Origin: Alphaproteobacteria bacterium LSUCC0684
GTDB lineage: Bacteria > Pseudomonadota > Alphaproteobacteria > Puniceispirillales > UBA1172
Direction of reading: 5' to 3'
DNA length: 64,000 nt
Assembly: GCA_041228335.1 (NCBI GenBank)
Contig: CP166130.1
Span: forward strand, 310,001-374,000
The stretch's first letter is position 1. Each line of letters opens with the position of its first letter. Both the position numbers and the translations under genes were made by a program. Positions 28,234 to 50,045 of this stretch are shown one piece after another. Under the pieces are notes generated by a model. It ran no database searches. It had not been told where the DNA came from and saw only the letters and a program-made list of their open reading frames with translations.

Positions 28234-28326
28234 GCTTCATGATGGCCTATCCCGGACCATATCGCAATCATGGACAGGGGTGAGACTTTGTTTGCGTCGA
28301 AAACATGTATCGTGCATATTTCCCCC

Positions 28327-29847
28327 ATGTCGACGGATAAGCATTTCATGAAAATGGTTGAGCGGGCCCGGGCCGAGATGCCAGGTGAGGGTGCCGCCAT
28401 GGCCGATCAGCTTTTAAGCGCATCACGGCAGCAGCGGCTTGTTTTCTCGCTCGATGATTTTGAGGTTGATTTTTCCCGCCAGACCATCACGACCGAAGGC
28501 GTGGATATTCTTCTTGAACTTGCCTCAAGCCGCAAGGTCGAGGCCAGCCGGAATGACATGTTTGCCGGTGCGGTGATCAACCGGTCCGAGATGCGGCCGG
28601 TATTGCATACCCATCTGCGTGATCCGGAAAACCCGATGGCCCGGGCAAATGTCGATGCCATGGCCGAAATTTGCGAACGTATTCTTGCCCTTGGCATCGA
28701 AGATGTGGTCTCCATCGGTATCGGCGGCTCCGATTTAGGGCCGGCCATGGCGGTGGAAGCTTTGCGTCCCTTCCATCAGGGCCCGGACGTCCATTTCGTC
28801 AGCAATATCGACCCCGCGCATCTTGGCGACACGCTGGCGATGCTCAATCCCGCCACCACCGCCGTGCTGGCCATTTCAAAGACATTTACCACCATGGAAA
28901 CCATGGCCAATCTCAGGATGGCAAGGGACTGGCTGAAACGTGGCGGCGCCTCGCCGGATGAGCAGGTTTTTGCCATCACGTCAAATACAGGCGCTGCGCT
29001 CGGGCAGGGTATTTCCCTTTCATCGATCCTGACGATGGATGAAGGCATCGGCGGCAGGTTTTCGCTCTGGTCAGCGGTAGGTCTCGGGATCATGCTTGCC
29101 ATCGGACGGGAAGGTTTCGTTGAAATGCTGGCCGGGGCTGAGGCCATGGACCGTCATTTCGCCGCCGCCCCGGCGGAGAGCAATCTGCCGCTTCTGGCCG
29201 GACTCTTTCGTTTCTGGAACACGTCTGTTCTGGGGCGGCCGGGCCAGGCCATCATCCCCTATGATCAGCGGCTTCACCGCCTGCCTGCATGGATGCAGCA
29301 GCTGGAAATGGAATCAAACGGCAAGAGCCTTGATGCGAAGGGCCGGCCCGCCACCTTGCTGACCTCGCCCTATATTTTCGGTGAGCCCGGCAGCAATGCC
29401 CAGCATTCGTTCTTTCAGCTTCTGCATCAGGGCAGGATGATCACCCCGACGGACGTGATGGGCCCGATGCGGCCGATCAGTCTTTTGGGCAAGGATGATC
29501 CGGCGATGGAAGAACAGCATCGCCTTCTGATCATACAGATGCTGGCGCAGGCGGATGCGCTCTGTCTTGGCAGGCCGGAAGAGGGCTTTGCGGGCGGGCG
29601 TCCGGTAACGCTTCTGACCTGGGATGAGACATCACCCTTCAGCCTTGGCCGCCTGCTTGCGTATTATGAACATGTGACCGCGGTGATGGGCTGGATGCTC
29701 GGGCTGAACAGTTTTGACCAGCCCGGGGTCGAGCTTGGCAAGACGATTGCCCGCAACTACCGGAACTATCTTGAAAAAGGTGGTATGGACGATACCATCC
29801 CCGCCCATAGTCGCGCTTTCCTTGACCGTTTCACCACCAGCGATTAG
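28327..29847 (+). CDS. pgi: Glucose-6-phosphate isomerase
   Basis: A 506-residue protein from the ATG at 28327 (an upstream in-frame ATG at 28270 lacks support). It interconverts glucose 6-phosphate and fructose 6-phosphate. Visible family motifs are VSIGIGGSDLGPAMA (about 135-150), ISKTFTTMET for phosphate binding, the signature GGRFSLWSAVGL and QQLEMESNGKS containing the catalytic glutamate. At 506 residues it is a compact version compared with the roughly 550-residue E. coli enzyme. It is an orphan here, adjacent to the carnitine operon without a shared function. Confidence 0.94.
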   Translation: MSTDKHFMKMVERARAEMPGEGAAMADQLLSASRQQRLVFSLDDFEVDFSRQTITTEGVDILLELASSRKVEASRNDMFAGAVINRSEMRPVLHTHLRDPENPMARANVDAMAEICERILALGIEDVVSIGIGGSDLGPAMAVEALRPFHQGPDVHFVSNIDPAHLGDTLAMLNPATTAVLAISKTFTTMETMANLRMARDWLKRGGASPDEQVFAITSNTGAALGQGISLSSILTMDEGIGGRFSLWSAVGLGIMLAIGREGFVEMLAGAEAMDRHFAAAPAESNLPLLAGLFRFWNTSVLGRPGQAIIPYDQRLHRLPAWMQQLEMESNGKSLDAKGRPATLLTSPYIFGEPGSNAQHSFFQLLHQGRMITPTDVMGPMRPISLLGKDDPAMEEQHRLLIIQMLAQADALCLGRPEEGFAGGRPVTLLTWDETSPFSLGRLLAYYEHVTAVMGWMLGLNSFDQPGVELGKTIARNYRNYLEKGGMDDTIPAHSRAFLDRFTTSD

Positions 29848-29871: not shown

Positions 29872-29931
29872 TTTGACTGAACCTGGGGCAATGATGTTCT
29901 CTCATACTGTCCTATGGAGAAGGTCATGACG

Positions 29932-30819
29932 ATGAACACCGAAGTCTTTATTACTTGCGCGCTGACCGGTGCGGGGGACACCACCGGCAAATCCGATCTG
30001 GTGCCCGTCACGCCTGCGCAGATCGCCAATGACGCCATTGAGGCCGCCAAGGCAGGCGCGGCGATCGCCCATTGCCATGTGCGGGATCCGGAAACCGGCG
30101 CTCCAGCCCGTGATGTCGCGCTTTACCGTGAAGTGGTGGACCGTATCCGCAGCGCTGATACCGATGTGGTGATCAACCTGACCGCGGGCATGGGGGGGGA
30201 TCTGATCATCGGGTCGGCCGAAGCGCCGCTTCCTCTTCATCCATCAAGTGATATGGTCGGGGCCTCCGAAAGGACCGAACATGTCCGCACCCTCCTGCCT
30301 GAGATCTGCACCCTTGATTGCGGCACGATGAACTTCTCCCATGGCGATTATATCATGGCCAATACGCCGTCGATGCTGCGGGCCATGGCAGGCCAGATGC
30401 AGGAAGCTGGCGTGCGGCCGGAAATCGAGGTGTTCGATACAGGCCATCTTGTCCTGGCAAAGCAGCTGGTGAGCGAGGGCCTCATCGATGATCCGGTGAT
30501 GGTGCAGCTCTGCATGGGGATACCCTATGGCGCGCCTGATGATATCAACACTTTCATGTCCATGGTCAACAACATGCCTGAAGGCTGGATCTGGAGCGCC
30601 TTTTCCATCGGCCGCGGCCAGTTGCCTTATGCGGCGCTGGCACCGATCGCCGGCGGCAATGTCCGGGTCGGGCTTGAGGATAATATCTACCTCAGGCGCG
30701 GGGAGCTTGCCTCCAACGCCCAGCTGGTCGAACGTGCCGTGACCATCCTTGAAGCCATGAATATCCGTGTCATGACGCCCGAAGATGTACGGGCAAAGCT
30801 GAAATTGAAAAAACGGTGA
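29932..30819 (+). CDS. BKACE-family enzyme, likely 3-dehydrocarnitine:acetyl-CoA cleavage enzyme
   Basis: A 295-residue DUF849/BKACE protein from the ATG at 29932 (29926 is also possible; AAGG at 29920-29923). The TIM-barrel zinc site shows AHCHVRDPETG with His47 and His49, and further LDCGTMNFS and LVLAKQL motifs. BKACE enzymes condense a beta-keto acid with acetyl-CoA and cleave it to acetoacetate and a new CoA ester. The next gene is a carnitine dehydrogenase, so the likely substrate is 3-dehydrocarnitine, giving betainyl-CoA and acetoacetate. The stop is five bases before the next start. Confidence 0.88.
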   Translation: MNTEVFITCALTGAGDTTGKSDLVPVTPAQIANDAIEAAKAGAAIAHCHVRDPETGAPARDVALYREVVDRIRSADTDVVINLTAGMGGDLIIGSAEAPLPLHPSSDMVGASERTEHVRTLLPEICTLDCGTMNFSHGDYIMANTPSMLRAMAGQMQEAGVRPEIEVFDTGHLVLAKQLVSEGLIDDPVMVQLCMGIPYGAPDDINTFMSMVNNMPEGWIWSAFSIGRGQLPYAALAPIAGGNVRVGLEDNIYLRRGELASNAQLVERAVTILEAMNIRVMTPEDVRAKLKLKKR

Positions 30820-30823
30820 GGGT

Positions 30824-32311
30824 GTGATGAGAAGCGTGCGTAAGGCGGCAGCCATTGGCGGCGGGTTGATCGGCGGCGGCTGGGTGGCCCGTCTCATCCT
30901 GGCCGGGGTCGATGTTGATGTTTTTGATCCGGATCCGGAAGCGGAACGCAAGGTTGCCGCGCTCCTGACCAATGCGGAGCGGGCCATGGCCAGGCTATGG
31001 CAGGGGCAGGCGCTGGGAAGGCGCGGCCGGCTTCGCTTTGTCTCAAGCATTGCCGAGGCGGTGGACGGCGCTGATCTTATTCAGGAATCCACGCCTGAAC
31101 GTCTTGATATAAAAAAGAAGGTGCATGCTGAAATCGGTGCCGCCGCCCCCGCCGGGGCCATTATCGGCTCTTCGACATCAGGCCTTCTGCCAACGGATTT
31201 TCAGGCCGATTCCCCGAGGGCGGACCGGGTCATGGTGGCCCATCCCTATAACCCGGTCTATCTGCTGCCCGTGGTGGAGATTGTCGGCGGCGCCAGAACC
31301 TCGCCTGAGGCGATTTCCCGGGCCATGCAAGCCTATGCTGAAATCGGCATGAAACCGGTCCATATCCAGAAGGAGATCGACGCCTTTGTCGGGGATCGCC
31401 TGCTCGAAGCCATGTGGCGTGAATCTCTCTGGCTGATCAAGGAAGGCGTCGCCACGGCGGAGACCATAGATGATGTCGTCCGCTATGGCCTCGGGATGCG
31501 CTACGCGCAGATGGGCCAGTTCATGACCTATCGTCTTGGCGGCGGTGAGGCCGGCATGCGGCATTTCCTTGCCCAGTTCGGCCCGTCGCTCAAATGGCCA
31601 TGGACCAGGCTCATGGATGTGCCGGAATGGGATGATGCGCTGATCGATATGATCGCCGAACAGAGCGATGCCCAGGCAAAAGGTCTTTCGGTGGCCGAGC
31701 TTGAACAGATCCGCGACAACAACCTTGTCGACTTCCTCAAGGTGCTTCATCGCAACAACTGGGGCGCCGGCGCGCTGCTGCACAATCCGGCGAAAGCCAG
31801 CGTCGCGGATGGGGTCAATACCCTGCCGGAAGGCAGCATGCTCCAGACCTTTTCCGGCATCGTCGATGCGGACTGGACCGATTATAACGGCCATATGACC
31901 GAATTCCGCTATCTTGATGTATTCAGCACCTCGACCGATGAGCTTCTTGTCTGGATCGGGGGCGGGCCGGCCTATGCGGCTTCCGGCGCATCCTGGTATA
32001 CGATCGAAACGCATATCCGGCATCTGGATGAAGTGGCGGCAGGCAAGCCGATACGGGTTGAAACCCAGCTGGTGGATCATGATGAAAAACGGCTCCATCT
32101 CTTCCATCGGATGATCGGGGTTGAAAAGGACAATCTTCTGGCCACCGGCGAGCATATGCTGATGCATGTGGATATGGAGGCAGGCCGGGGATCAGCAATG
32201 CCTTCAGCCATGAAATCTGTCCTTGATACCATTGCCGAACGCCAGCGTGACATGCCGCGCCCCGATGCGGCTGGCGCCCGGATCGGGATCAGACGAAAAA
32301 GGCAGGATTGA
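30824..32311 (+). CDS. L-carnitine dehydrogenase fused to a betainyl-CoA thioesterase-type domain
   Basis: A 495-residue two-domain protein. Residues 1-330 are a 3-hydroxyacyl-CoA dehydrogenase-like NAD enzyme: Rossmann motif IGGGLIGGGWVA, then HPYNPVYLLPVVEIVGG and a segment RYAQMGQFMTYRLGGG typical of carnitine 3-dehydrogenases. Residues about 340-470 form a hotdog thioesterase domain (DADWTDYNGHMTEFRY). The first part would oxidise L-carnitine to 3-dehydrocarnitine; the second could hydrolyse the betainyl-CoA made by the upstream BKACE enzyme to glycine betaine. This fusion is known in carnitine degraders. The acyl-CoA dehydrogenase starts one base after its stop. Confidence 0.9.
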   Translation: MMRSVRKAAAIGGGLIGGGWVARLILAGVDVDVFDPDPEAERKVAALLTNAERAMARLWQGQALGRRGRLRFVSSIAEAVDGADLIQESTPERLDIKKKVHAEIGAAAPAGAIIGSSTSGLLPTDFQADSPRADRVMVAHPYNPVYLLPVVEIVGGARTSPEAISRAMQAYAEIGMKPVHIQKEIDAFVGDRLLEAMWRESLWLIKEGVATAETIDDVVRYGLGMRYAQMGQFMTYRLGGGEAGMRHFLAQFGPSLKWPWTRLMDVPEWDDALIDMIAEQSDAQAKGLSVAELEQIRDNNLVDFLKVLHRNNWGAGALLHNPAKASVADGVNTLPEGSMLQTFSGIVDADWTDYNGHMTEFRYLDVFSTSTDELLVWIGGGPAYAASGASWYTIETHIRHLDEVAAGKPIRVETQLVDHDEKRLHLFHRMIGVEKDNLLATGEHMLMHVDMEAGRGSAMPSAMKSVLDTIAERQRDMPRPDAAGARIGIRRKRQD

Positions 32312-32312
32312 C

Positions 32313-33473
32313 ATGAAGTTTGGACTTACCGAAGAACAGGACATGATTGTCAGCACCGTTCGGGATTTTGTCGAACGTGAAATCTATCCCCATGAAAATG
32401 AGGTGGAACGGCTTGGCCATGTGCCCGAAGAGATCGCGCAGGAGATCAGATCCAAGGTGCTGGCCATGGGGTTTTATGCCCCGAACTTCCCCGAAGAGGT
32501 CGGCGGCGGCGGGCTCAGCCATCTGGAATTTGCCTTGCTTGAGCGTGAGCTCGGGCGCGGCTCCATGGCGCTGACGCATTTCTGGGGGCGGCCGCAGAAC
32601 ATCCTCATGGCCTGTGAGGGAGAGCAGCGCGAAAAATATCTTTTTCCGGCCATTCGTGGCGAACGGATGGATGCACTGGCCATGACTGAACCTGACGCTG
32701 GCTCAGATGTCCGGGGGATGAAAACCACCGCCAGGCGCGACGGCGATGACTGGGTAGTCAACGGCACCAAGCATTTCATCTCCGGTGCCGCGCATGCCGA
32801 TTTTGTCATCGTGTTTGTTGCAACCGGCGAAGACCAGACCCCAAAAGGCCCGAAGAAGCGGATCACCTGCTTTCTGGTGGATCGCGGCCATCCTGGGTTT
32901 GAAATTCTGCCGGGGTATCGGTCGGTTTCCCATCGCGGCTATGACAACATGATTCTCAAATTTGAAGATTGCCGCCTGCCATCATCCCAGGTGCTGGGCG
33001 AAGTCGATGGCGGTTTCGAGGTCATGAACACCTGGCTTTATGCAACCCGGATCACCGTGGCGACAATGTGCGTCGGGCGGGCAAGACGTGTTTTTGATCT
33101 GGCGATGCAATACGCGGTGGACCGCAAGCAGTTCGGCCAGCAGATCGGGAAATTCCAGGGGGTGAGTTTCAAACTTGCCGATATGATAACCGAAATCGAT
33201 GCCGCCGACTGGCTCACCCTGGCTTCCGCCTGGCGCCTCGATGAAGGGCTTGAAGCCAACCGGGAGATTGCCTCGGCCAAGGTCTATGCCAGCGAGATGC
33301 TTGCCCGGGTAACCGATGAAGCCATCCAGATCCATGGCGGCATGGGGCTGATGAATGATTTTCCGCTGGAACGTTTCTGGCGTGATGCGCGGGTGGAGCG
33401 GATCTGGGACGGCACCTCCGAAATCCAGCGTCATATCATCAGCCGTGATCTTCTGCGCCGGCTGGGAGGCTAG
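32313..33473 (+). CDS. Acyl-CoA dehydrogenase (possibly for gamma-butyrobetainyl- or related CoA ester)
   Basis: A 386-residue FAD protein from the ATG at 32313. Signatures include AMTEPDAGSDVRGMKTTA, FSGA-like FISGAAHADF, RKQFGQQIGKFQ and QIHGGMGLMNDFPLERFWRDA. The usual catalytic base glutamate (EGT) is an aspartate here: Asp366 in RIWDGTSEIQR. Placement between carnitine dehydrogenase and CoA ligase/CaiD genes suggests it introduces the double bond of gamma-butyrobetainyl-CoA to make crotonobetainyl-CoA, or the reverse. It is not closely CaiA-like, so the substrate is an inference. Confidence 0.85.
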   Translation: MKFGLTEEQDMIVSTVRDFVEREIYPHENEVERLGHVPEEIAQEIRSKVLAMGFYAPNFPEEVGGGGLSHLEFALLERELGRGSMALTHFWGRPQNILMACEGEQREKYLFPAIRGERMDALAMTEPDAGSDVRGMKTTARRDGDDWVVNGTKHFISGAAHADFVIVFVATGEDQTPKGPKKRITCFLVDRGHPGFEILPGYRSVSHRGYDNMILKFEDCRLPSSQVLGEVDGGFEVMNTWLYATRITVATMCVGRARRVFDLAMQYAVDRKQFGQQIGKFQGVSFKLADMITEIDAADWLTLASAWRLDEGLEANREIASAKVYASEMLARVTDEAIQIHGGMGLMNDFPLERFWRDARVERIWDGTSEIQRHIISRDLLRRLGG

Positions 33474-33482
33474 GTATTGCCC

Positions 33483-35507
33483 ATGGTGCGGTCTGGTCTG
33501 AACCGGCTGCTTCGCCCGCGTCACATCGCCGTTCTTGGCGGCCGCTGGGCGGAGGCGGTGATTGTCTCGCTGAAGGAGATGGGGTTTGAAGGTGGCATCT
33601 GGCCGGTGCATCCTGAAAAAAAGGAGATTTCCGGCCTGCCGGTTTTCCCTGATATCGACGCGCTTCCCGAGCCGCCTGATGCCTGTTTCCTCGGGGTGAA
33701 TCGCAGCCTCACCATTGAAATGGTCGAAAAGCTCAGGTCCATGGGGGCAGGCGGAGCGGTGGCCTTTGCCTCTGGTTTTGCCGAGGTCGGGGATGGCGCG
33801 GCATTGCAAAAGCGTCTTGTCGAGGCGGCAGGTGACATGCCGGTGCTTGGCCCGAACTGTTATGGGATGATCAATTATCTCGATGGTGCCTTGCTCTGGC
33901 CGGATGTTCACGGTGGCACGCGGGTTGAGCGCGGGGTGGCCATCATCACCCAGAGCTCCAACCTTTCGATCAACCTGACCATGCAGGAAGGCGGCCTGCC
34001 CATTGCCTATATGCTGACACTTGGCAATCAGGCGATGATCGGCATGGCGGAGCTTGTCCGGGCCGTCGCCGAAGATGACCGGGTGAGCGCCATCGGGCTT
34101 CACATTGAAGGTTTCAACGATGCGGCCGGTTTTGCCGATGCCGTCCATCTGGCGAGGAAAGCCGGCAAACCGGTGATTGCCATGAAAGCCGGCGCCTCGG
34201 AAGGCGCGCGGCAGATGACGTTTTCGCATACCGCCTCGCTGGCGGGTTCCCACGCGGTTGCCGGGGCGTTTCTTGCCCGGCTTGGCGTCGGGATGGTGAA
34301 TGGCATAGAAGCCTTTCTTGCCGCGCTCGGCCTTGCCCACACGTTCGGCAGGCTTGATGAGGTGAGCATCCTTACCCTGTCCTGTTCGGGGGGTGAGGCG
34401 TCGCTGATTGCCGATACCGCCCAGCGGCACGGGATTCCCATGCCCGTGCTGGATGCCGCGGCATCGGCGCGGATTGCCGCCACGGTCAACCCGCTGGTGA
34501 CCGTCAGCAACCCGTTTGATTACCATACATTTGACTGGGGCAATCGCGAAAGGCTTGAAAAGACCTTTGCCGCCGCGATGCAGGCAGGTCAGGCCATCAG
34601 CGTGCTGATCCTTGATTTTCCCTCGACGCATCTCGGCCGCGCCGAAGACTGGCAGATCGCCCTTGATGCCTGGCTTGCGGCAAGAGATCACACCGGCTCA
34701 AGGGCGGCGGTATTGTCGTCGTTGCCGGATTGCCTGCCTCGCCGAGTGGCGGGGTGGCTGATCGAGCACGGGATCGCGCCCTTGCGGGGGTTTGACGCCT
34801 CGATGGAGGCGCTGGCGGCCCTGCGTCAGGCCAGCAGGCCTTCCTCTTTCCGGCCGACTGGAATAACGAGGCTTGACCGCCCGGAAGCACCTCTTTCCGA
34901 AACCGCGGCCAAGGAAGAGCTCAAGGCCGCGGGCGTGCCGGTGCCGGAAGGCGGGATCATGGCAAGCCTCGATGCGGCGCTTGCCTTTGCCGATGGGCAG
35001 AAGGTGGTGATGAAGCGAAGCGGTCTTGCCCATAAAACCGAAGCCGGCGGGGTTCGCCTTGGCCTGTCCGATCCTGGGGATATACGAAGGGCATGGGCTG
35101 AATTTGCCCCGCACGGGCCGGTGCTGGTCGAGGAGATGGTCGAGGATGCGCTGGCCGAAGTCTTGGTTGGCGTTGCGAGAGACCCGGTGCTTGGTCTTCA
35201 TCTCGTCATTGGAGCCGGCGGCATTGCTGCTGAAATGCTTCAGGATACGGCATTGCTGATGCTGCCGGCCTCCCGCGGGGAGGTCAGGGCCGCGCTTGAG
35301 GGGCTCCGGATGGCGCCTCTTCTTCATGGGTTTCGCGGCTCGGCGAGGGCGGATATTGATGCCCTGCTGGATCTGATTGATGCGGTCCAGCGTTTTGCCC
35401 TCAGCCATGAGGCTGATCTCATGGAGCTTGATCTCAATCCCGTGCTCGTCCGGGGTGAGGGGAAAGGTGTCCTCGCGGTTGACGCGCTGATCCGCTACGC
35501 TAGCTAG
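33483..35507 (+). CDS. ADP-forming-type acyl-CoA synthetase (fused alpha-beta), candidate crotonobetaine/carnitine CoA ligase
   Basis: A 674-residue protein from the ATG at 33483 (a TTG at 33477 is in frame). It has the acetyl-CoA synthetase (ADP/NDP-forming) layout: CoA-binding Rossmann domain (about 1-135), ligase domain (about 145-430) with the phosphohistidine motif FSHTASLAGSHAV (His about residue 249), and a C-terminal ATP-grasp domain (about 445-674) with VVMKRSGLAHKTEAGGV and GAGGIAAEMLQD. It would form an acyl-CoA from a free acid, ATP and CoA. Known carnitine systems use CaiC (AMP-forming) or CaiB transfer, so this would be an unusual replacement. It starts ten bases after the dehydrogenase stop. 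Confidence 0.88.
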   Translation: MVRSGLNRLLRPRHIAVLGGRWAEAVIVSLKEMGFEGGIWPVHPEKKEISGLPVFPDIDALPEPPDACFLGVNRSLTIEMVEKLRSMGAGGAVAFASGFAEVGDGAALQKRLVEAAGDMPVLGPNCYGMINYLDGALLWPDVHGGTRVERGVAIITQSSNLSINLTMQEGGLPIAYMLTLGNQAMIGMAELVRAVAEDDRVSAIGLHIEGFNDAAGFADAVHLARKAGKPVIAMKAGASEGARQMTFSHTASLAGSHAVAGAFLARLGVGMVNGIEAFLAALGLAHTFGRLDEVSILTLSCSGGEASLIADTAQRHGIPMPVLDAAASARIAATVNPLVTVSNPFDYHTFDWGNRERLEKTFAAAMQAGQAISVLILDFPSTHLGRAEDWQIALDAWLAARDHTGSRAAVLSSLPDCLPRRVAGWLIEHGIAPLRGFDASMEALAALRQASRPSSFRPTGITRLDRPEAPLSETAAKEELKAAGVPVPEGGIMASLDAALAFADGQKVVMKRSGLAHKTEAGGVRLGLSDPGDIRRAWAEFAPHGPVLVEEMVEDALAEVLVGVARDPVLGLHLVIGAGGIAAEMLQDTALLMLPASRGEVRAALEGLRMAPLLHGFRGSARADIDALLDLIDAVQRFALSHEADLMELDLNPVLVRGEGKGVLAVDALIRYAS

Positions 35508-35528: not shown

Positions 35529-36311
35529 ATGTCTGATGTTATCAGGACACACCGGAATGGCGGGGTGTTTGAATTTGTTCTCGATCGCCCCAAGGCCAAC
35601 GCCATCGATCTTGCCACAAGTCGCCTGATGGGCGAAGCCTTCCGGGAATTCCGTGATGATCCGGATCTGAAGGTCGCGATTGTCAGCACCGCAGGTGACA
35701 GGTTCTTCTGCGCGGGCTGGGACCTGAAGGCGGCGGCGGATGGTGATCCCGTTGATGGCGATTACGGGGTCGGCGGTTTTGGCGGGCTGCAGGAATTGCG
35801 CGGGCTCAACAAGCCGGTGATAGCAGCGGTCAACGGCATGGCGGTGGGCGGCGGTTTTGAACTCGCCCTTTCCTGCGACATGATCTATTGCAGCGAGCAT
35901 TCCAGTTTTGCCCTGCCCGAAATCAAGGCAGGAACGCTTGCCGATGCGGCCACGATCAAACTGCCCAAACGCATCCCTTATCACATCGCCATGGAAATGC
36001 TTTTTACCGGCCGGTGGATGCAGGCCGATGAGGCTTTGCATCACGGGCTTGTCAATGCCGTGCTTCCGGCCGAAAGCCTGATGGATCATGTCCGCGGTAT
36101 CGCGGCTGATCTTGCGGCCGGCCCGCCGCTTGTCTTTGCCTCGATCAAGGAAGTGGTGCGTGAAGCCGAGGCCATGGCGTTTCAGGATATCATGAACAGG
36201 GTGACACGCCGCCAGCTTGCGACGGTCGATATTCTCTACGACAGCGAGGATAATCTCGAAGGGGCGAAAGCCTTTGCCGAAAAACGTGATCCGGTATGGA
36301 AGGGACGCTGA
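35529..36311 (+). CDS. caiD: CaiD-like carnitinyl-CoA dehydratase/crotonobetainyl-CoA hydratase
   Basis: A 260-residue crotonase-family protein. Its resemblance to E. coli CaiD is strong: DRPKANAID near the start, CAGWDLKAAA, KPVIAAVNGMAVGGGFELAL, and a near-identical C terminus FAEKRDPVWKGR. Glu111 and Glu131 stand at the two catalytic glutamates of CaiD. It hydrates crotonobetainyl-CoA to carnitinyl-CoA. The loop after Glu131 differs (AGTLADAATIK). It is the last enzyme gene of the operon beginning at 29932, with a GGAGG site. Confidence 0.9.
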   Translation: MSDVIRTHRNGGVFEFVLDRPKANAIDLATSRLMGEAFREFRDDPDLKVAIVSTAGDRFFCAGWDLKAAADGDPVDGDYGVGGFGGLQELRGLNKPVIAAVNGMAVGGGFELALSCDMIYCSEHSSFALPEIKAGTLADAATIKLPKRIPYHIAMEMLFTGRWMQADEALHHGLVNAVLPAESLMDHVRGIAADLAAGPPLVFASIKEVVREAEAMAFQDIMNRVTRRQLATVDILYDSEDNLEGAKAFAEKRDPVWKGR

Positions 36312-36337
36312 CCATGGCCTCGGGGAAAGGAGCACAG

Positions 36338-36826
36338 ATGACATCGATTTTCGCACGTTTGGCTCTTGCGGTCATGCTTGCGCTGGCAGGGTTCAGCCTG
36401 CCGTCTCTCTCCCATGCGGCAGGCAGCGGCGATAGCGGCACCACCTACACCACCAGCAAGAAATCCGATACTTTGAAGAAAGCGGAAAAAGCGATTGCCG
36501 ATGAAAGGTTCGAGGAGGCCTATGAGTTGCTTTCCGCCGAAGCCCTTCGCGACGCCGACAATGCCGATATCCATAATCTTCTCGGTTATTCGGCGCGCAA
36601 ACTGGGCCGGCTTGCCGAAAGCGAGGCACATTATTTCAAGGCGCTTTCGCTCGATCCCAAACACAAGGGCGCGCTTGAATATATGGGGGAACTCTACCTG
36701 ACCATGAACCGGCCAGATGAAGCGCTGAAACTCCTTGAGCGACTCGAAAAGATCTGCTGGCTTGGTTGCGATGAAGAAGATGAGCTGCGGGCGGCGATCA
36801 CCAAATGGAAAGAAACCAACGGGTGA
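36338..36826 (+). CDS. Exported TPR-repeat protein
   Basis: A 162-residue protein from the ATG at 36338, preceded by AAAGGAGC. A signal peptide (about residues 1-30, ending SHA) is followed by two to three tetratricopeptide repeats (about 45-145) with the usual A..LL......L..LG...L..LGR pattern. TPR domains are scaffolds for protein contacts; no specific partner can be named. It is 26 bases downstream of the caiD-like gene and may be read through from the operon without sharing its function. Confidence 0.82.
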   Translation: MTSIFARLALAVMLALAGFSLPSLSHAAGSGDSGTTYTTSKKSDTLKKAEKAIADERFEEAYELLSAEALRDADNADIHNLLGYSARKLGRLAESEAHYFKALSLDPKHKGALEYMGELYLTMNRPDEALKLLERLEKICWLGCDEEDELRAAITKWKETNG

Positions 36827-42874: not shown

Positions 42875-43462
42875 ATGCTGGATTCCCTTGATGCAAATCT
42901 GCAATTGCAACGGTCATCAGGTCAGATCGGGCAGGACATACGCGCGCTTCGTCAGGGGCGCGGCTGGACGCTGACGGATCTTGCCGGCCGCCTTCAGCGA
43001 TCGGTTGGCTGGTTGAGCCAGATGGAACGCGGCACTTCGGAGCCTTCCTTGAGCGATATCCGCCAGATCGCTGAAATTTTCGGCCTTCCCTTGAGTTTCT
43101 TTTTCGCCCATTCCCCGGTTGAGGGGGAGGCACACACGATTGTTCGCGCCGGCCACCGCCGCAAGATCACCGATGACATCATGGGCCTGACCGAGGAATT
43201 GCTGTCGCCGGATCTTGGCGGGTCTTTTGAAATGGTGCGATCTGTTTTTGCGCCCGGCTCGGCCATCACGGCGCCGGTCACCAGACCGACCGAAGAGGCG
43301 GGCTATGTCGTTTCGGGGAATCTGGAGCTGAGTGTCGGGGAGCGGAGCTACACGCTGAACCCCGGTGACAGTTTCCGTTTTTCGGGTGAGCTCATGTCCT
43401 GGAAGAACACCGGCACCGAAGATGCCGTGGTGATCTGGGTCATCGCGCCGCCAATCTACTGA
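42875..43462 (+). CDS. XRE-family regulator with C-terminal cupin domain
   Basis: A 195-residue protein. An HTH_3 domain (about 18-76: LRQGRGWTLTDLAGRLQ, VGWLSQMERG) is followed by a short linker and a beta-barrel cupin (about 110-192: GSAITAPVTRPTEEAGYVVSGNLEL). Such proteins often sense a small metabolite through the cupin and repress an adjacent catabolic operon. The two DMGDH-like genes and the MttB-family gene follow in the same direction, 31 bases on, so it probably responds to a methylated amine such as glycine betaine or dimethylglycine (inferred). Confidence 0.9.
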   Translation: MLDSLDANLQLQRSSGQIGQDIRALRQGRGWTLTDLAGRLQRSVGWLSQMERGTSEPSLSDIRQIAEIFGLPLSFFFAHSPVEGEAHTIVRAGHRRKITDDIMGLTEELLSPDLGGSFEMVRSVFAPGSAITAPVTRPTEEAGYVVSGNLELSVGERSYTLNPGDSFRFSGELMSWKNTGTEDAVVIWVIAPPIY

Positions 43463-43493
43463 TTGAACAAATTTCTGGACGAAAGAGGACATC

Positions 43494-45983
43494 ATGACAG
43501 ACAAGCAGCAGGATCAGACAAGCAAGGCCACCGGCACGCTGCCGAAGACGGCAAGAGTCGTGGTGATCGGCGGTGGATCGGTCGGGACATCGGTTCTGTA
43601 TCATCTGGCCAGGATGGGATGGACCGACTGTCTTCTCCTTGAGAAGAACGAACTCACCTCGGGCTCGACCTGGCATGCGGCGGGGAACTGCCCGAACTAT
43701 GTCGGCTCCTGGACGATCATGAAGATCCAGTCCTATTCAACCGAACTCTACCGCCGCCTTGGTGCAGAGGTGGACTATCCGATGAACTATCATGTCACGG
43801 GGGCAATTCGCCTTGCCCACAGCCGCCAGCGCATGGAAGAATTCCGCCATGTCGAGCGGATGGGCCGGCAGATGGGAATCGAATTCGAGGAAATGTCGAA
43901 CGCCGACATGCGGGAGATTTATCCCTTCCTTGAGACTCACGATCTCGAAGGCGGGCAGTGGGATCCGCTTGATGGCGATATTGACCCGGCCCAGCTGACT
44001 CAGGCGCTGGCCAAGGGCGCGCGTGATCTTGGTGCCCAGATCATCCGCTTCTGCCCGGTGACAGGTGTTGAGCGCGTCAAGGACGAATGGCTTGTCCGGA
44101 CACCGATCGGGGAGGTGCGATGCGAATATGTGGTCAATGCCGCCGGTTACCGCGCCGATGAAATCGGCAGGATGTTCGGCCGTGATGTGCCTTGTGTCTC
44201 GCTGGCGCATCAGTATCTCGTGACCGAAAGCATCCCCGAACTGACCGCGCGGGACAGGAAACTGCCGCTCCTGCGTGATCCGGATTCCTCCTATTATCTG
44301 CGCCAGGAAAAAGATGGTCTTCTGCTCGGCCCATATGAGAAAAACTGCAAGGCACACTGGATCACCGCCGATGACCCGCGCCCCGATGATTTCTCCTTCC
44401 AGCTCTGGAACGATGATCTCGAACGGCTGGAATGGTATATCGATGATGCCTGCAGGCGTGTTCCCATTCTTGGCAGTGCCGGGATAACCCGGGTTGTCAA
44501 CGGCCCCATCCCCTACGCGCCGGATGGCCTGCCGCTGATCGGCCCCATGCCCGGCGTGCCCAATGCGTTTGAATGCTGCGTCTTCACCTTCGGCATCGTT
44601 CAGGCCGGCGGCGCGGGCAAACTGATGGCGGAAATGATCATCGAGGGTGAGCCCGAAACCGACAGTTGGGCCGTCGATCCGCGCAGATTCACCGATCACG
44701 TGGACCGGGCCTATTCGATCGCCAAGGCCATTGAGACCTATTCCCATGAATACGCCATGCATTTCCCGCAGATCCAGTGGCCGGCCGGCCGCCCGGCCAA
44801 GACCTCGCCGCTTTATGAAACCCTCAAGGAAAAGGGCGCGGTTTTCGGGGCCTATGGCGGCTGGGAGCGGGCGGACTGGTTCCCCCGTCAGGGCGAAAGC
44901 GAACATATGGCGGACAGTTATGACCGCCAGCCCTGGTTTGATACGGTGGGGGCCGAATGCCGTCATGTGGCGGAACATGCCGGGGTGCTGGACCTCACCG
45001 GGTTCTCCCGCTTTGAGCTGACGGGGAGCGGCGCAAGGGATTGGCTTGAAGGTCTTGTCACCGGCCGATTGCCGAAGCCCGGGCGGATCGGGCTGATCTA
45101 TTTTGCCTCTGAAAAGGGCAAGGTGCTGACCGAAATGACGGCAACCTGTTTTGCCGAAGACAGATACTGGCTGATCACCGGCGCCGGTGCCTACTGGCAT
45201 GATCGGGACTGGCTCAACGCGCATCTGCCCGCCGATGGATCGGTCAGGCTTGAAGATATCACCCGTGATCTCGGCACCCTTCTCGTCACCGGGCCGAAGG
45301 CACCGGCCATCATGTCAGCGCTGACAGGCGCGGATATGGGCCAGCAGGCCTTCCCCTGGCTTACCCACCAGCAGATTGATGCAGGCGGCGTTCCGGCAAC
45401 AGCCATCCGGGTTTCCTTCGCCGGTGAGGCGGGGTGGGAAATCCATGTCGAGATGGCAAAGCTGAAAGCTGCGTGGGATGCGGTCTGGGAAGCCGGGGCC
45501 GGGCATGATCTCGGCTGTTTCGGCATGCTGGCCCTTGATTCGATGCGGCTTGAGAAAGGCTACCGTTCCTGGAAATCGGATCTGACATCGGATTACACGA
45601 TGCTTGAAAGCGGCCTCGGGCGCTGGGTCAATACCGGCAAGCAGGCCTTTATCGGCAAGACGGCGCTGCAGACCGAAGAGCAGCGCGGCGTCAAACGCCG
45701 CTTCGTCACGCTGACCCTTGAGGATCCGGCCGATGGTGAACCTTTTGGTGAGGCGGTCTATCTTTCGGTTATCCGGGCGGATGGCAAGGATGCCGGTCTG
45801 GTGCTTTCGGCCGGTTACGGCCATCGGACAGGCGCCTCGATCGCCTATGGCGTCGTCGATGAAACGGCTTTCCAGGGGGCGGCGCCGGAACTGGTTGTTG
45901 ATGTGCTTGGCCGCGAGAGGAAAGCCCGCCTCGTTGAAAATGGCGTTCTCTATGATGCCGCGAACTTGAAACTGAAAGGCTAG
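43494..45983 (+). CDS. Dimethylglycine dehydrogenase-like FAD protein 1
   Basis: An 829-residue protein. The N-terminal FAD-dependent DAO domain has the Rossmann motif VVIGGGSVGTSVLYHLARMGW and STWHAAG with the histidine that typically carries covalent FAD. A FAO_M linker domain follows near residue 400, then a GcvT-type folate-binding domain in the C-terminal half (about 440-829). Homologues oxidatively demethylate dimethylglycine or sarcosine and pass the methyl to tetrahydrofolate. The gene is three bases from its paralogue, so the two are co-translated and may form one complex or act in sequence. Confidence 0.9.
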   Translation: MTDKQQDQTSKATGTLPKTARVVVIGGGSVGTSVLYHLARMGWTDCLLLEKNELTSGSTWHAAGNCPNYVGSWTIMKIQSYSTELYRRLGAEVDYPMNYHVTGAIRLAHSRQRMEEFRHVERMGRQMGIEFEEMSNADMREIYPFLETHDLEGGQWDPLDGDIDPAQLTQALAKGARDLGAQIIRFCPVTGVERVKDEWLVRTPIGEVRCEYVVNAAGYRADEIGRMFGRDVPCVSLAHQYLVTESIPELTARDRKLPLLRDPDSSYYLRQEKDGLLLGPYEKNCKAHWITADDPRPDDFSFQLWNDDLERLEWYIDDACRRVPILGSAGITRVVNGPIPYAPDGLPLIGPMPGVPNAFECCVFTFGIVQAGGAGKLMAEMIIEGEPETDSWAVDPRRFTDHVDRAYSIAKAIETYSHEYAMHFPQIQWPAGRPAKTSPLYETLKEKGAVFGAYGGWERADWFPRQGESEHMADSYDRQPWFDTVGAECRHVAEHAGVLDLTGFSRFELTGSGARDWLEGLVTGRLPKPGRIGLIYFASEKGKVLTEMTATCFAEDRYWLITGAGAYWHDRDWLNAHLPADGSVRLEDITRDLGTLLVTGPKAPAIMSALTGADMGQQAFPWLTHQQIDAGGVPATAIRVSFAGEAGWEIHVEMAKLKAAWDAVWEAGAGHDLGCFGMLALDSMRLEKGYRSWKSDLTSDYTMLESGLGRWVNTGKQAFIGKTALQTEEQRGVKRRFVTLTLEDPADGEPFGEAVYLSVIRADGKDAGLVLSAGYGHRTGASIAYGVVDETAFQGAAPELVVDVLGRERKARLVENGVLYDAANLKLKG

Positions 45984-45986
45984 ATC

Positions 45987-48461
45987 ATGTCGGAGTCATT
46001 ACCCACCCATGCAAGGGTCGTCATCATCGGTGGCGGTGTTGTCGGTTGTTCGGTTGCCTATCACCTGACCAAGCTTGGCTGGACGGATGTGGTGCTGCTG
46101 GAGCGCAAACAGCTGACCTGCGGGACAACCTGGCACGCGGCCGGGCTGATCGCCCAGCTCAGGGCGACCCAGAACATGACCCGGCTGGCGAAATACTCCC
46201 AGGAGCTATATTTCAGCCTTGAAGACGAAACCGGCGTCGCCACCGGCATCAAGCGCAATGGCTCGATCACCGTGGCGCTCACCGATGAGCGGATGGAAGA
46301 GCTTCGCCGCAGCGCCGCCATGGCGCGGGCCTTCGGGGTTGAGATCACCGAGATCGATACAGCCGAGATCAGCCGCCTTTATCCCGGTCTCAACGTCGAG
46401 GATGCGGTGGGTGGTGTCTGGCTGCCGAAGGATGGCCAGGCGGATCCGGTGAACATCACCCAGGCGCTGGCCAGGGGCGCCAGGATGCGCGGCGCGACCA
46501 TCCTTCAGGGGGTGAAGGTCACGGGCATCCTGCAGGAAAACGGGCAGGCCGTTGGGGTTGAAACCGAAAGCGGCACGATCCGGTCTGAATTCGTGGTCAA
46601 TTGCGGCGGTATGTGGGCGCGTGAAATCGGGGCGATGGCCGGGGTTGCCGTGCCGCTACATGCCTGCGAGCATTTCTATATTGTGACCGAAGGGATTGAC
46701 GGGCTGCAATCCAACCTGCCGGTTCTGCGCGTGCCCGATGAATGCGCCTATTACAAGGAAGATGCGGGCAAGATCATGCTCGGGGCGTTTGAGCCGAACT
46801 CCAAGCCCTGGGGGATGGACGGCATCCCCGAAGACTTTGAATTTGACAGCCTGCCCGAAGATTTCGACCATTTCGAGCCCATCCTTGAAAAAGCCGTCAT
46901 GCGGCTGCCGGTTCTGGGGCAGGCAGGTATCCAGACATTTTTCAACGGCCCGGAAAGTTTCACCCCCGATGACCGCTATATTCTCGGCGAGGCGCCGGAG
47001 TTGCGGAATTTCTTTGTCGCGGCAGGGTTCAATTCGGTTGGTATCCAGTCCGCCGGTGGTGCCGGGATGGTGCTGGCCGAATGGATGGACAAGGGCAATG
47101 CCCCCATGGATCTATGGGATGTCGATATCCGCCGGATGCAGCCGTTCCAGACCAACCGCAGCTATCTTCATGACCGGGTGAGCGAAACCCTCGGGCTTCT
47201 TTACGCCGATCACTTCCCCTATCGGCAGTTTGAAACAGGCCGCAATATCCGCCGTTCGCCGATCCACCACCGCCTTGAAGATCAGGGCGCCTGTTTTGGT
47301 GAAGTCAATGGCTGGGAGCGGGCCAACTGGTTCCTGCCCGAAGATCAGATGGCAGCAGGCAAGGCCCCTGCCTATGAATACAGCTGGAAGCGGCAGAACT
47401 GGTTTGAGCATAACGCCGCCGAACACAAAGCCGTCCGGGAAAAGGTCGGGTTTTTCGATCTGTCGAGCTTTGGCAAGATCATGGTCGTCGGCGCCGATGC
47501 CGAAGCGGTGCTGCAACGTATTGCCGGCAACGATGTTGCCGTCGAACCGGGGCGCATCGTCTATACCCAGTTCCTCAATGCCCATGGCGGCATCGAAGCC
47601 GACGTGACCATCACGAGGCTGGATCCGGACCGCTTCATCGTCGTGACCCCGGCGGCGACAATCCGCCGGGATCTGAACTGGATCACCCGCCACATTCCCG
47701 ATGGCGCCAGCTGCATGGCCATGGATGTGACGGCGATGGAATCGGTGCTGGTGGTGATGGGGCCGGAAGCCCGGGATTTCCTTCAGCCGATGATCCCGCA
47801 GCGTCTCGACAACGTGGATTTCCCTTTCGGAACGATGCAGGAGATTGAGATCGGCTACGCAAAGGCGCGGGCCCACCGGGTCTCCTATGTGGGCGAGCTG
47901 GGATGGGAGCTTTATGTATCCGCTGACATGGCGGTTCATGTCTTTGATACGCTGATGCGGCGGGCGGAAGATCATCCTTTGAAGCTTTGCGGCCTTCATA
48001 CGCTTGACACCTGCCGGATCGAAAAAGCCTTCCGGCATTTCGGCCATGACATTTCAAGCGAAGATCACGTGCTTGAGGCGGGTCTCGGATTCGCAGCCCG
48101 GATCGGCAAACAATCCGGCCGGTTTGGCGACTTTATCGGCCGCGATGCCGTCATGCGCAAGAAGGACGAAGGGCTCAAGGCCCGGATGATGCAGTTCCGC
48201 CTCAAGGATCCGGTGCCGCTCCTCTATCACAACGAAGCGGTGATACGGGATGGCGAAATCGTCGGTTACCTGACATCGGGCAATTACGGGCATCATCTCG
48301 GCGGCGCGATCGGCATGGGTTATGTTCCCTGCCGTGATGGCGAAGACGGCGAAAGCCAGCTTGCGTCTGATTATATGATCGACGTGGCGGGAGAGAGGGT
48401 TGCAGCCGAAGTCAGTCTCAAGCCCATGTATGACCCGACCGCCGAACGGATGAAATCCTGA
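45987..48461 (+). CDS. Dimethylglycine dehydrogenase-like FAD protein 2
   Basis: An 824-residue paralogue of the preceding protein with the same order: DAO-type FAD domain with VVIIGGGVVGCSVAYHLTKLGW and TTWHAAG (FAD-linking histidine), FAO_M linker, then GcvT-like domain with a closing GNYGHHLGGAIGMGYVP. The sequence around the substrate site differs from the first (LIAQLRATQNMTRLAKYS versus NCPNYVGSWTIMKIQSYS), so the two probably act on different methylamines, for example dimethylglycine and sarcosine (inference). Confidence 0.9.
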   Translation: MSESLPTHARVVIIGGGVVGCSVAYHLTKLGWTDVVLLERKQLTCGTTWHAAGLIAQLRATQNMTRLAKYSQELYFSLEDETGVATGIKRNGSITVALTDERMEELRRSAAMARAFGVEITEIDTAEISRLYPGLNVEDAVGGVWLPKDGQADPVNITQALARGARMRGATILQGVKVTGILQENGQAVGVETESGTIRSEFVVNCGGMWAREIGAMAGVAVPLHACEHFYIVTEGIDGLQSNLPVLRVPDECAYYKEDAGKIMLGAFEPNSKPWGMDGIPEDFEFDSLPEDFDHFEPILEKAVMRLPVLGQAGIQTFFNGPESFTPDDRYILGEAPELRNFFVAAGFNSVGIQSAGGAGMVLAEWMDKGNAPMDLWDVDIRRMQPFQTNRSYLHDRVSETLGLLYADHFPYRQFETGRNIRRSPIHHRLEDQGACFGEVNGWERANWFLPEDQMAAGKAPAYEYSWKRQNWFEHNAAEHKAVREKVGFFDLSSFGKIMVVGADAEAVLQRIAGNDVAVEPGRIVYTQFLNAHGGIEADVTITRLDPDRFIVVTPAATIRRDLNWITRHIPDGASCMAMDVTAMESVLVVMGPEARDFLQPMIPQRLDNVDFPFGTMQEIEIGYAKARAHRVSYVGELGWELYVSADMAVHVFDTLMRRAEDHPLKLCGLHTLDTCRIEKAFRHFGHDISSEDHVLEAGLGFAARIGKQSGRFGDFIGRDAVMRKKDEGLKARMMQFRLKDPVPLLYHNEAVIRDGEIVGYLTSGNYGHHLGGAIGMGYVPCRDGEDGESQLASDYMIDVAGERVAAEVSLKPMYDPTAERMKS

Positions 48462-48494
48462 CCCTGAAATATCCAACGCAAGAGAGATGCTGCC

Positions 48495-50045
48495 ATGAGA
48501 GAGACACACATACTTCCCAGATCCCGCCGTGCAGGCGGGCGTGAAGCGCGCAAAAGCCTGCGGGCGGCGCCACTTGCCGATGCCTTGCGTCCGGTTCGTC
48601 CGGGGCTGATGGGCGGAACCTACCGGCCGCTTGATGCCGCCGCCGTCAACGCGGTCCAGGATACGGTCTTTCAGATTCTCGAAGAGATCGGTCTTTCCCA
48701 GGCGCCGGAATCCGGCATTCGCTACATGACCGAAGCCGGCGCAATCGCCGGAGATGATGGCCGGGTGCGTTTCCCCCGGGCGCTTGTCGAGGATACGATC
48801 GCAAGGGCGGCGCGGAACATCACCCTTCACGGCCAGGAGGAGAAGTTTGATCTCCATCTCTCCGGCACGAAAGTTCATTTCGGCACGGCCGGGGCGGCGG
48901 TGCATGTGGTTGATGTTCACGGCAACGCCTACAGGGAAAGCACGCTCAAGGATATCTACGATGCGGCGCGGATTGTTGAAAACATGGACAATATCCATTT
49001 CTTTCAGCGCCCCATGGTTGCCCGTGACGTCGTCGATGCGAAAGACCTTGATATCAACACGCTTTACGCCTGTGTTGCCGGGACCCGCAAACATGTCGGC
49101 GTGAGCTTCACCGAGGCTGAATTTGTCCCCGAAGCCATTGAAATGCTTCATAAGCTTGCCGGGTCCGAAGAAAGCTGGCGGGCCCGTCCTTTCGTTTCCA
49201 ACTCCAACTGTTTTGTGGTGCCGCCGCTAAGGTTTGCGACTGAATCCTGCCTTGTCATGGAAGAAGTGATAAAGGGCGGGATGCCGGTATTGCTGTTGTC
49301 GGCCGGGCAGGCCGGGGCCACGGCACCGGCCTCGATTGCAGGCGCGGTTGCCCAGGCGGTTGCCGAGGTGCTGGCCGGTCTTGTCTATGTCAACGCGATG
49401 GTCCCCGGGCATCCGGCGATATGCGGCACCTGGCCCTTTGTCTCCGATCTCCGAACCGGCGCGATGTCCGGCGGCTCGGGCGAGCAGGGGTTGCTGACCG
49501 CCGCCTGCGCCCAGATGATCAATCATTTTGATCTGCCTTCCGGCGCCGCATCAGGCATGGCGGATTCGAAAATGCCCGATGCCCAGTCGGGCTACGAGAA
49601 AGGGAGCACCGCCGTCATGGCCGGCCTTGCCGGGCTCAACATGGTCTATGAAAGCGCCGGCATGCATGCCTCGCTCCTTGGCTTCTGCCTTGAAAGCCTG
49701 GTGATCGATAACGACATGCTCGGCCAGTGCATGCGTTGCGTGCGCGGGGTCGAGGTGAATGAGAAGACGCTCAGCCTGCAGGTGATGAAGGATGTGTGCA
49801 TGGGCGGGCCCGGGCATTACCTCGGCCATGATGCCACCATCGGGGTGATGCAGACCGAATATGTCTATCCCCAGCTGGCGGACAGGTCCTCACCCAAGGA
49901 ATGGGAAGAACTCGGCAAGCCTGATCTCGTGGCTCAGGCATCGGCGCGCAAGGACAGTATTCTTGAAACCTTCCATCCCGGCCATATTCCGGCCGAGGTG
50001 GATGCGCTGATTCGCCAGCATCACCAGATCCTTCTTGCCCGCTAG
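48495..50045 (+). CDS. MttB-superfamily (trimethylamine methyltransferase-like) protein, non-pyrrolysine
   Basis: A 516-residue protein. The opening GLMGGTYRPLDAAAVNAVQD and the closing half with GGPGHYLGHDATI are as in trimethylamine/glycine betaine methyltransferase homologues. The gene has no in-frame stop, so the residue at the pyrrolysine position is an ordinary amino acid, as in MtgB-type enzymes. MtgB moves a methyl from glycine betaine to a corrinoid protein. No corrinoid protein or activase gene is in this operon, so its true methyl acceptor is open. It follows the second DMGDH-like gene by 33 bases and overlaps the convergent acyltransferase gene by four bases. Confidence 0.87.
   Translation: MRETHILPRSRRAGGREARKSLRAAPLADALRPVRPGLMGGTYRPLDAAAVNAVQDTVFQILEEIGLSQAPESGIRYMTEAGAIAGDDGRVRFPRALVEDTIARAARNITLHGQEEKFDLHLSGTKVHFGTAGAAVHVVDVHGNAYRESTLKDIYDAARIVENMDNIHFFQRPMVARDVVDAKDLDINTLYACVAGTRKHVGVSFTEAEFVPEAIEMLHKLAGSEESWRARPFVSNSNCFVVPPLRFATESCLVMEEVIKGGMPVLLLSAGQAGATAPASIAGAVAQAVAEVLAGLVYVNAMVPGHPAICGTWPFVSDLRTGAMSGGSGEQGLLTAACAQMINHFDLPSGAASGMADSKMPDAQSGYEKGSTAVMAGLAGLNMVYESAGMHASLLGFCLESLVIDNDMLGQCMRCVRGVEVNEKTLSLQVMKDVCMGGPGHYLGHDATIGVMQTEYVYPQLADRSSPKEWEELGKPDLVAQASARKDSILETFHPGHIPAEVDALIRQHHQILLAR

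Follow-up and report, generated by a model that had tools for sequence, protein, structure and literature searches.

The ligase gene and its operon

A 64,000-nucleotide stretch of the genome of Alphaproteobacteria bacterium LSUCC0684 (contig CP166130.1, positions 310,001 to 374,000; hereafter the window) contains, on its forward strand, a gene for a fused alpha-beta nucleoside diphosphate (NDP)-forming acyl-CoA ligase. Its domains, alignments, gene neighbourhood, and phylogenetic placement suggest that it is probably a gamma-butyrobetaine:CoA ligase, orthologous to BcoAB of Sinorhizobium meliloti. The reading frame was uninterrupted from the ATG at 33483 to the stop at 35507 and encoded 674 residues. 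Three Pfam domains were each found above cut-off: CoA_binding_2 (PF13380; residues 13-130, 33519..33872), Succ_CoA_lig (PF13607; residues 151-282, 33933..34328), and ATP-grasp_5 (PF13549; residues 468-671, 34884..35495), in the order seen in a fused alpha-beta NDP-forming acyl-CoA synthetase. A preliminary description of this DNA had proposed the same architecture with a phosphohistidine at about position 249; the predicted residue is exactly H249 (34227..34229), which lies in the Succ_CoA_lig domain, was invariant in two alignments (15/15 and 36/36 ligases), and aligned with His292 of DddX, an enzyme discussed below. Judged by its domains, its histidine residue, and its modeled fold, all of which match, the ligase is a member of the NDP-forming acyl-CoA synthetase (ACD) superfamily, and ADP and Pi would be its products. 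The CaiC model NF005947 was not among the ligase's NCBIfam matches (searched to E 0.001); with Pfam domains of the ACD type and no AMP-binding fold, the protein is, by its sequence, not CaiC-like.

The ligase is the fourth of five tightly spaced genes on the forward strand. The first encodes a BKACE protein (29914..30819; 301 residues; Pfam PF05853, 334.7 bits), probably the enzyme that cleaves 3-dehydrocarnitine (CdhC-type). The second (30824..32311; 495 residues) encodes L-carnitine 3-dehydrogenase (CDH) fused to a 4HBT thioesterase, with Pfam domains 3HCDH_N, 3HCDH, and 4HBT_2 and a score of 712.1 bits with NCBIfam NF005716, above the cut-off of 592. The third encodes an acyl-CoA dehydrogenase (ACAD; 32313..33473; 386 residues; Pfam Acyl-CoA_dh), probably a gamma-butyrobetainyl-CoA dehydrogenase, whose end is separated from the ATG of the ligase by 9 bases. 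Downstream of the ligase lies a crotonase (35529..36311; 260 residues), a probable crotonobetainyl-CoA hydratase whose top NCBIfam model was CaiD (NF002936), at 319.7 bits and thus below the cut-off of 500. The ligase was the operon's only CoA-activating candidate; the preliminary description, which had placed it between an acyl-CoA dehydrogenase and a near-CaiD hydratase as the sole candidate activating enzyme, was borne out in these respects. Next to the operon lie a phosphoglucose isomerase gene (28270-29847) on one side and a gene for a TPR protein (36296-36826) on the other. Promoter and terminator scans gave signals no better than chance.

One feature of the ACAD may be recorded here. 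At 33405-33428 it reads W365-D366-G-T-S-E-I-Q, with Asp in a stretch that we take to be the usual catalytic-Glu motif site of acyl-CoA dehydrogenases. Among 102 matches of at least 57% identity (duplicates included), the motif read WDGTSEIQ in 79, WDGTTEIQ in 1, and WEGTSEIQ in 21; the remaining match did not extend over the site.

The carnitine cluster of Sinorhizobium meliloti

The cluster of S. meliloti Ak57 has the order BKACE, carnitine 3-dehydrogenase, ACAD, ligase, caiD, and ABC transporter. In that order, its proteins were 69, 51, 76, 49/43 (alpha and beta parts of the ligase), and 70% identical to those of the window. In a tree of 85 rows made by a quick method, the ligases of the window, Rhizobium, and Sinorhizobium, with Ak57 represented by its alpha open reading frame (ORF), fell in one 53-row clade with SH-aLRT support of 100. 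By these sequence comparisons, the ligases of the window and of the S. meliloti carnitine cluster are orthologs. The ligase was also the sole CoA-activating candidate found in that cluster: LSUCC0684 encodes 6 class III CoA-transferases and 11 AMP-binding proteins, none of which had a match in the Ak57 locus (E 1e-3).

A gamma-butyrobetaine:CoA ligase from S. meliloti, BcoAB, is reported to have made gamma-butyrobetainyl-CoA from ATP and CoA in preparative use (PMC8364193), and the S. meliloti CDH SM2011_c01638 is reported to act as both dehydrogenase and thioesterase (PMC12482172). By orthology, and by exclusion within the cluster, we equate the cluster ligase with BcoAB. The likeness extends to the gene order common to the Ak57 cluster and the window, and to the placement of both ligases in the same clade. 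The two differ in that the window ligase is a single fused chain and the Ak57 ligase reads as two ORFs. The neighbors differ as well, with a GlxA-type regulator and genes of an ABC transporter beside the Ak57 cluster, and phosphoglucose isomerase and the TPR protein next to the window operon. Bazire and colleagues (2019), to whom BcoAB is attributed, reportedly described five S. meliloti enzymes that together convert gamma-butyrobetaine to glycine betaine in seven steps.

The preliminary description had assumed that known systems activate their substrate with CaiC or CaiB only, and had suggested that the ligase, if active on carnitine, crotonobetaine, or gamma-butyrobetaine, would be a different, energy-saving activation route. 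The premise was not supported and the claim of novelty fails, given the published BcoAB (PMC8364193) and the S. meliloti cluster with the same order and an orthologous ligase; the route is already known in kind, and BcoAB represents it. In the openly searchable literature, which leaves most subscription papers outside and is no proof of absence, we found no NDP-forming carnitine ligase among the titles listed.

Structural relatives and conserved aromatic residues

The structure model of the ligase had a pLDDT of 91.7. Among solved structures, DddX (PDB 7cm9) ranked first both by sequence search and by Foldseek (TM 0.87), at about 25% identity; in VIA-align, DddX (Z 37.0, with 652 residues aligned) and 2csu (36.3, with 417) were tied on Z. 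DddX is described as an ATP-dependent dimethylsulfoniopropionate (DMSP) lyase, an ACD enzyme that makes DMSP-CoA and uses His292, the H292A mutant being inactive; docking and mutants led its authors to propose that the sulfonium is held between Trp391 and Phe435 and that Glu432 performs the cleavage (PMC8163506). The window ligase shares with it the ACD domain order, the fold, and the phosphohistidine, and the DddX substrate is, like gamma-butyrobetaine, a zwitterionic onium acid. In contrast to the role proposed for the window ligase, DddX is reported to split its CoA ester itself.

Four aromatic residues were examined in the main ligase group, which made up 61 of the 85 aligned rows (groups were delimited after viewing the tree). 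W139 (33897..33899), a candidate substrate-site aromatic, was Trp in 61/61 rows, with DddX Tyr181 falling inside an insertion just ahead of it. Codons 347-352 (Y347-H-T-F-D-W352; 34521..34538) form a conserved loop at the place of DddX Ile390-Trp391, with Y347 in 60/61 and W352 in 61/61 rows; Trp391 itself aligned with H348, adjacent to Y347 and near W352, so that the correspondence is to the same loop only. W390 (34650..34652) aligned with the cation-pi residue Phe435 and was Trp in 58/61 rows. The catalytic base Glu432 was not conserved; the aligned column was variable and held A387 in the window ligase. Five distant ACD ligases do not retain the aromatics as a set (L, N, Y, Y, T at 139; V, I, C, V, A at 347; L, P, T, F, Y at 352; A, A, L, G, H at 390), and five intermediate ligases had W352 in 5/5, an aromatic at 390 in 4/5, and an aromatic in 1/5 at each of 139 and 347. 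The archaeal ADP-forming 4-hydroxybutyrate- and 3-hydroxypropionate-CoA ligases (PDB 8wzu, 9y43) are of the same family and mechanism class as the window ligase, but by our reading of the alignments 8wzu has N, I, and A opposite W139, Y347, and W390, and the NCBIfam models of these archaeal enzymes, each with a cut-off of 1300 bits, scored the window ligase at 188.3 and 179.9. The aromatic pattern, as read from the alignments, fits a quaternary ammonium acid that would be bound and activated, not cleaved.

Other activating enzymes in the genome

The LSUCC0684 genome consists of one contig of 2.70 Mb, estimated to be 100% complete. The preliminary description had named a caiB or caiC elsewhere in the genome as evidence that would tell against it; genome-wide, no CaiB, CaiC, or BCCT transporter (CaiT family) was found above curated cut-off, and a search of the genome for BCCT transporters returned none. 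One of the six class III CoA-transferases was a formyl-CoA transferase above cut-off. The CaiB model was listed for four of the six, with a best score of 163.2 bits against a cut-off of 413, and its match to the remaining two fell short of E 1e-30. All 11 AMP-binding proteins were compared with the CaiC model, which was listed for three (best 245.6 bits; cut-off 651); for the rest, with the best 25 families per protein considered, CaiC scores were at most 254 bits. The genome encodes separate acetate- and acetoacetate-CoA ligases, each above cut-off. The latter, at C1:51468 of the genome, could consume acetoacetate released by BKACE, of which the genome has four copies (C1:1272727, 1704457, 339944, and 1148879).

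Conservation of the gene order

A ligase match was present in 12/12 genomes of the family searched, LSUCC0684 included. In the other 11, the ligase adjoined ACAD and CDH in 11/11, BKACE in 10/11, and crotonase in 8/11; where BKACE or crotonase was missing beside the ligase, the contig ended at that point. Because the association recurred in 12/12 family genomes, it is not attributable to chance.

In a class-wide sample of 385 genomes, CDH (NF005716, E 1e-120) was found in 42 and a match to a ligase profile (E 1e-130) in 43. A stricter ligase set, of at least 780 bits, comprised 32 genomes; CDH occurred in 23/32 of these as compared with 19/353 others, a figure uncorrected for kinship. The 44 CDH sites comprised 40 class-wide loci that were analyzed, the window, two sites in one genome (G176), and a site in G085 that was left out. 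The full order BKACE-CDH-ACAD-ligase-crotonase was found in 7/40 of the class-wide CDH loci, with CDH-ACAD-ligase additionally in L066, and a BKACE of 49-72% identity was present in 36/40. The five-gene order also occurred in the window's family, in Rhizobium leguminosarum CB782, and in S. meliloti Ak57. In some genomes, the trio of ACAD, ligase, and crotonase stood apart from BKACE and CDH, for example in four genomes of one family (L103-L106).

A further set of at least 53 named loci was collected with a single Roseobacter-like ligase as query and is biased for that reason. Of the 53 listed, 51/53 had an ACAD no more than 700 bases upstream of the ligase, 47/53 a crotonase no more than 1,200 bases downstream of it, and 46/53 both; BKACE or CDH was within the locus in 28. 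Some of the named loci among the matches listed carried a Gammaproteobacteria label.

In L056, an isolated segment (11274-11561) directly after CDH was 51% identical to the beta part of the ligase (residues 87-182 of the beta query), and neither the alpha part nor ACAD was matched in the locus; the segment is possibly a ligase remnant. In the Ak57 gene table, no coding sequence is listed at the position of the ligase (L221 9989-12051).

Proposed pathway and alternative functions

The sequence shows the protein families, the domain order, the phosphohistidine residue, the operon, the synteny, and the orthology; from these we infer the substrate, the nucleotide product, and each catalytic step in LSUCC0684. 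The proposed order of events is as follows: ATP would phosphorylate H249, and the phosphate would move from H249 to the carboxylate of gamma-butyrobetaine, from which CoA would displace it to give gamma-butyrobetainyl-CoA, ADP, and Pi. The ACAD would then oxidize gamma-butyrobetainyl-CoA to crotonobetainyl-CoA, which the CaiD-like crotonase would hydrate to L-carnitinyl-CoA. The thioesterase part of the CDH fusion would free L-carnitine, which would be oxidized to 3-dehydrocarnitine; BKACE, with acetyl-CoA, would convert this to betainyl-CoA and acetoacetate. Finally, the thioesterase would release glycine betaine from betainyl-CoA. Gamma-butyrobetaine is the substrate for which the ligase, the ACAD, and the hydratase would all be required. 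Synteny and the conserved aromatics also suggest a trimethylammonium acid as the substrate, with gamma-butyrobetaine the most probable one. The preliminary description had left the choice among carnitine, crotonobetaine, and gamma-butyrobetaine; the last now appears likeliest, and L-carnitine unlikely, since the thioesterase would free carnitine and activating it again would be futile. We put the probability that the protein is an ADP-forming gamma-butyrobetaine:CoA ligase, orthologous to the S. meliloti cluster ligase taken as BcoAB, at about 0.85.

Farther along the window (42875-50042) lie genes for an HTH-cupin regulator, two DAO/GCV_T proteins resembling dimethylglycine and sarcosine dehydrogenases, and an MTTB-family methyltransferase. 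Their products might take glycine betaine from the operon one step further; MtgB, as reported in PMC12478193, offers a comparison.

Several observations weigh against this assignment. The equation with BcoAB was reached by exclusion, rather than by comparison with a BcoAB sequence, and the Ak57 ligase reads as an alpha ORF of 480 residues overlapping a beta ORF of 228 (L221 9989-12051), which is either a natural split or the result of a frameshift or sequence error; in Sinorhizobium sp. C101, a 677-codon ligase stretch is open. Because the 780-bit threshold was picked with the list in view and the genomes share ancestry, the p-value for the co-occurrence of ligase and CDH serves only as a guide. 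At the thresholds used, CDH was not detected in 9/32 ligase genomes, although in two of these (G390 and G116) a CDH match does adjoin the ligase (L113 and L114), and 19/42 CDH genomes were without the ligase, which is what one would expect of a ligase for gamma-butyrobetaine rather than carnitine. Four of 32 loci, all of one family (L121, L122, L125, and L126), had no ACAD or crotonase match beside the ligase; their ligases carry Cys at position 390 as well as Ala at 380, and may differ in function. In L116 the ligase adjoins crotonase but no ACAD, and the fast-evolving ligases of L204, L206, and L210 are without Y347. Lastly, when the 17 CoA-transferases and AMP-binding proteins were compared with 145 loci, matches of at least 60 bits were found in 10, among them a same-strand AMP-binding gene near the cluster in L055 and L195 and a CaiB-type gene in L194. 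All three stand in otherwise window-like clusters: immediately upstream of BKACE in L055 (11991-13532), directly past crotonase in L195 (9961-11904), and upstream of ACAD in L194 (640-1818). They may be second activators, or enzymes of acetoacetate use.

Of the other functions considered, the one that best survives is that the ligase chiefly activates crotonobetaine or carnitine, as CaiC does, with the ACAD reducing crotonobetainyl-CoA like CaiA. The CaiD model at the top of the crotonase matches is in keeping with it, and given the reversibility of ADP-forming ligases, crotonobetaine could be a side substrate. However, the CDH-thioesterase fusion and BKACE would serve onward oxidation of carnitine, the activation of which would reverse the thioesterase step; the ACAD scored just 177.7 bits with the CaiA model (cut-off 540); the genome is without a BCCT transporter; and the presumed counterpart BcoAB is named a gamma-butyrobetaine:CoA ligase in the published account. 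We consider this function unlikely. Less probable still is a general ADP-forming ligase for acetate or other short-chain acids, present in the operon merely for acetate or acetoacetate. Relatives do carry the annotation 'acetate--CoA ligase family protein', and the acetate ligase alpha model TIGR02717 matched the window ligase, but at 202 bits against a cut-off of 567; the acetate- and acetoacetate-CoA ligases already present in the genome, the retention of ACAD and crotonase beside the ligase even apart from BKACE and CDH (L103-L106), and the report that DddX, the nearest solved relative, uses neither acetate nor propionate (PMC8163506) all speak against it. A DddX-like ATP-dependent lyase that cleaves an onium-acyl-CoA to release trimethylamine or dimethyl sulfide is the least probable: DddX is the closest solved structure, but its catalytic base is replaced by A387 in a variable column, and the separate ACAD and hydratase that follow would be superfluous for a lyase.

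A related operon and biological significance

A parallel operon (L136) was located outside the window, at about 1.701-1.709 Mb of C1 in the same genome. It encodes a paralogous ligase, an ACAD, a BKACE, a 3-hydroxyacyl dehydrogenase without thioesterase, a crotonase, and a luciferase-like monooxygenase, with an AraC-type regulator on the opposite strand. The paralogous ligase was 38-40% identical to the ligase of the carnitine operon, and its group retains W139, Y347, and W352, with Tyr at 390 in 6/6. Parasedimentitalea marina and Aminobacter sp. SR38 have similar operons, both with an ABC transporter, the latter also with an acetoacetate-CoA ligase and an aldehyde dehydrogenase. We suggest, tentatively, that the ligase of the carnitine operon might be one branch of a wider ACD group activating onium acids by way of a common aromatic pocket, and that the L136 branch might degrade a different acid, of the betaine or sulfonium type, following a similar logic of activation, oxidation, and cleavage. 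As a line of research, this second operon is the more open lead, and a better one than the ligase of the carnitine operon.

In forming the CoA ester of a trimethylammonium acid, the window ligase would resemble CaiC (AMP-forming) and CaiB (a CoA-transferase) of Escherichia coli and BbuB/C of Emergencia timonensis, as these are described (PMC2131755, PMC8364193). It differs from all of them in belonging to an unrelated protein family with different chemistry. The comparison offers a better label for proteins now held in databases as 'acetate--CoA ligase family protein', and suggests that the conserved aromatics could be a signature of onium-acid ligases. An ADP-forming ligase costs one high-energy phosphate per activation, an AMP-forming ligase two. 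Carnitine and gamma-butyrobetaine are bacterial nutrients, and the operon would allow LSUCC0684 to convert both to glycine betaine at the cost of one high-energy phosphate per activation.

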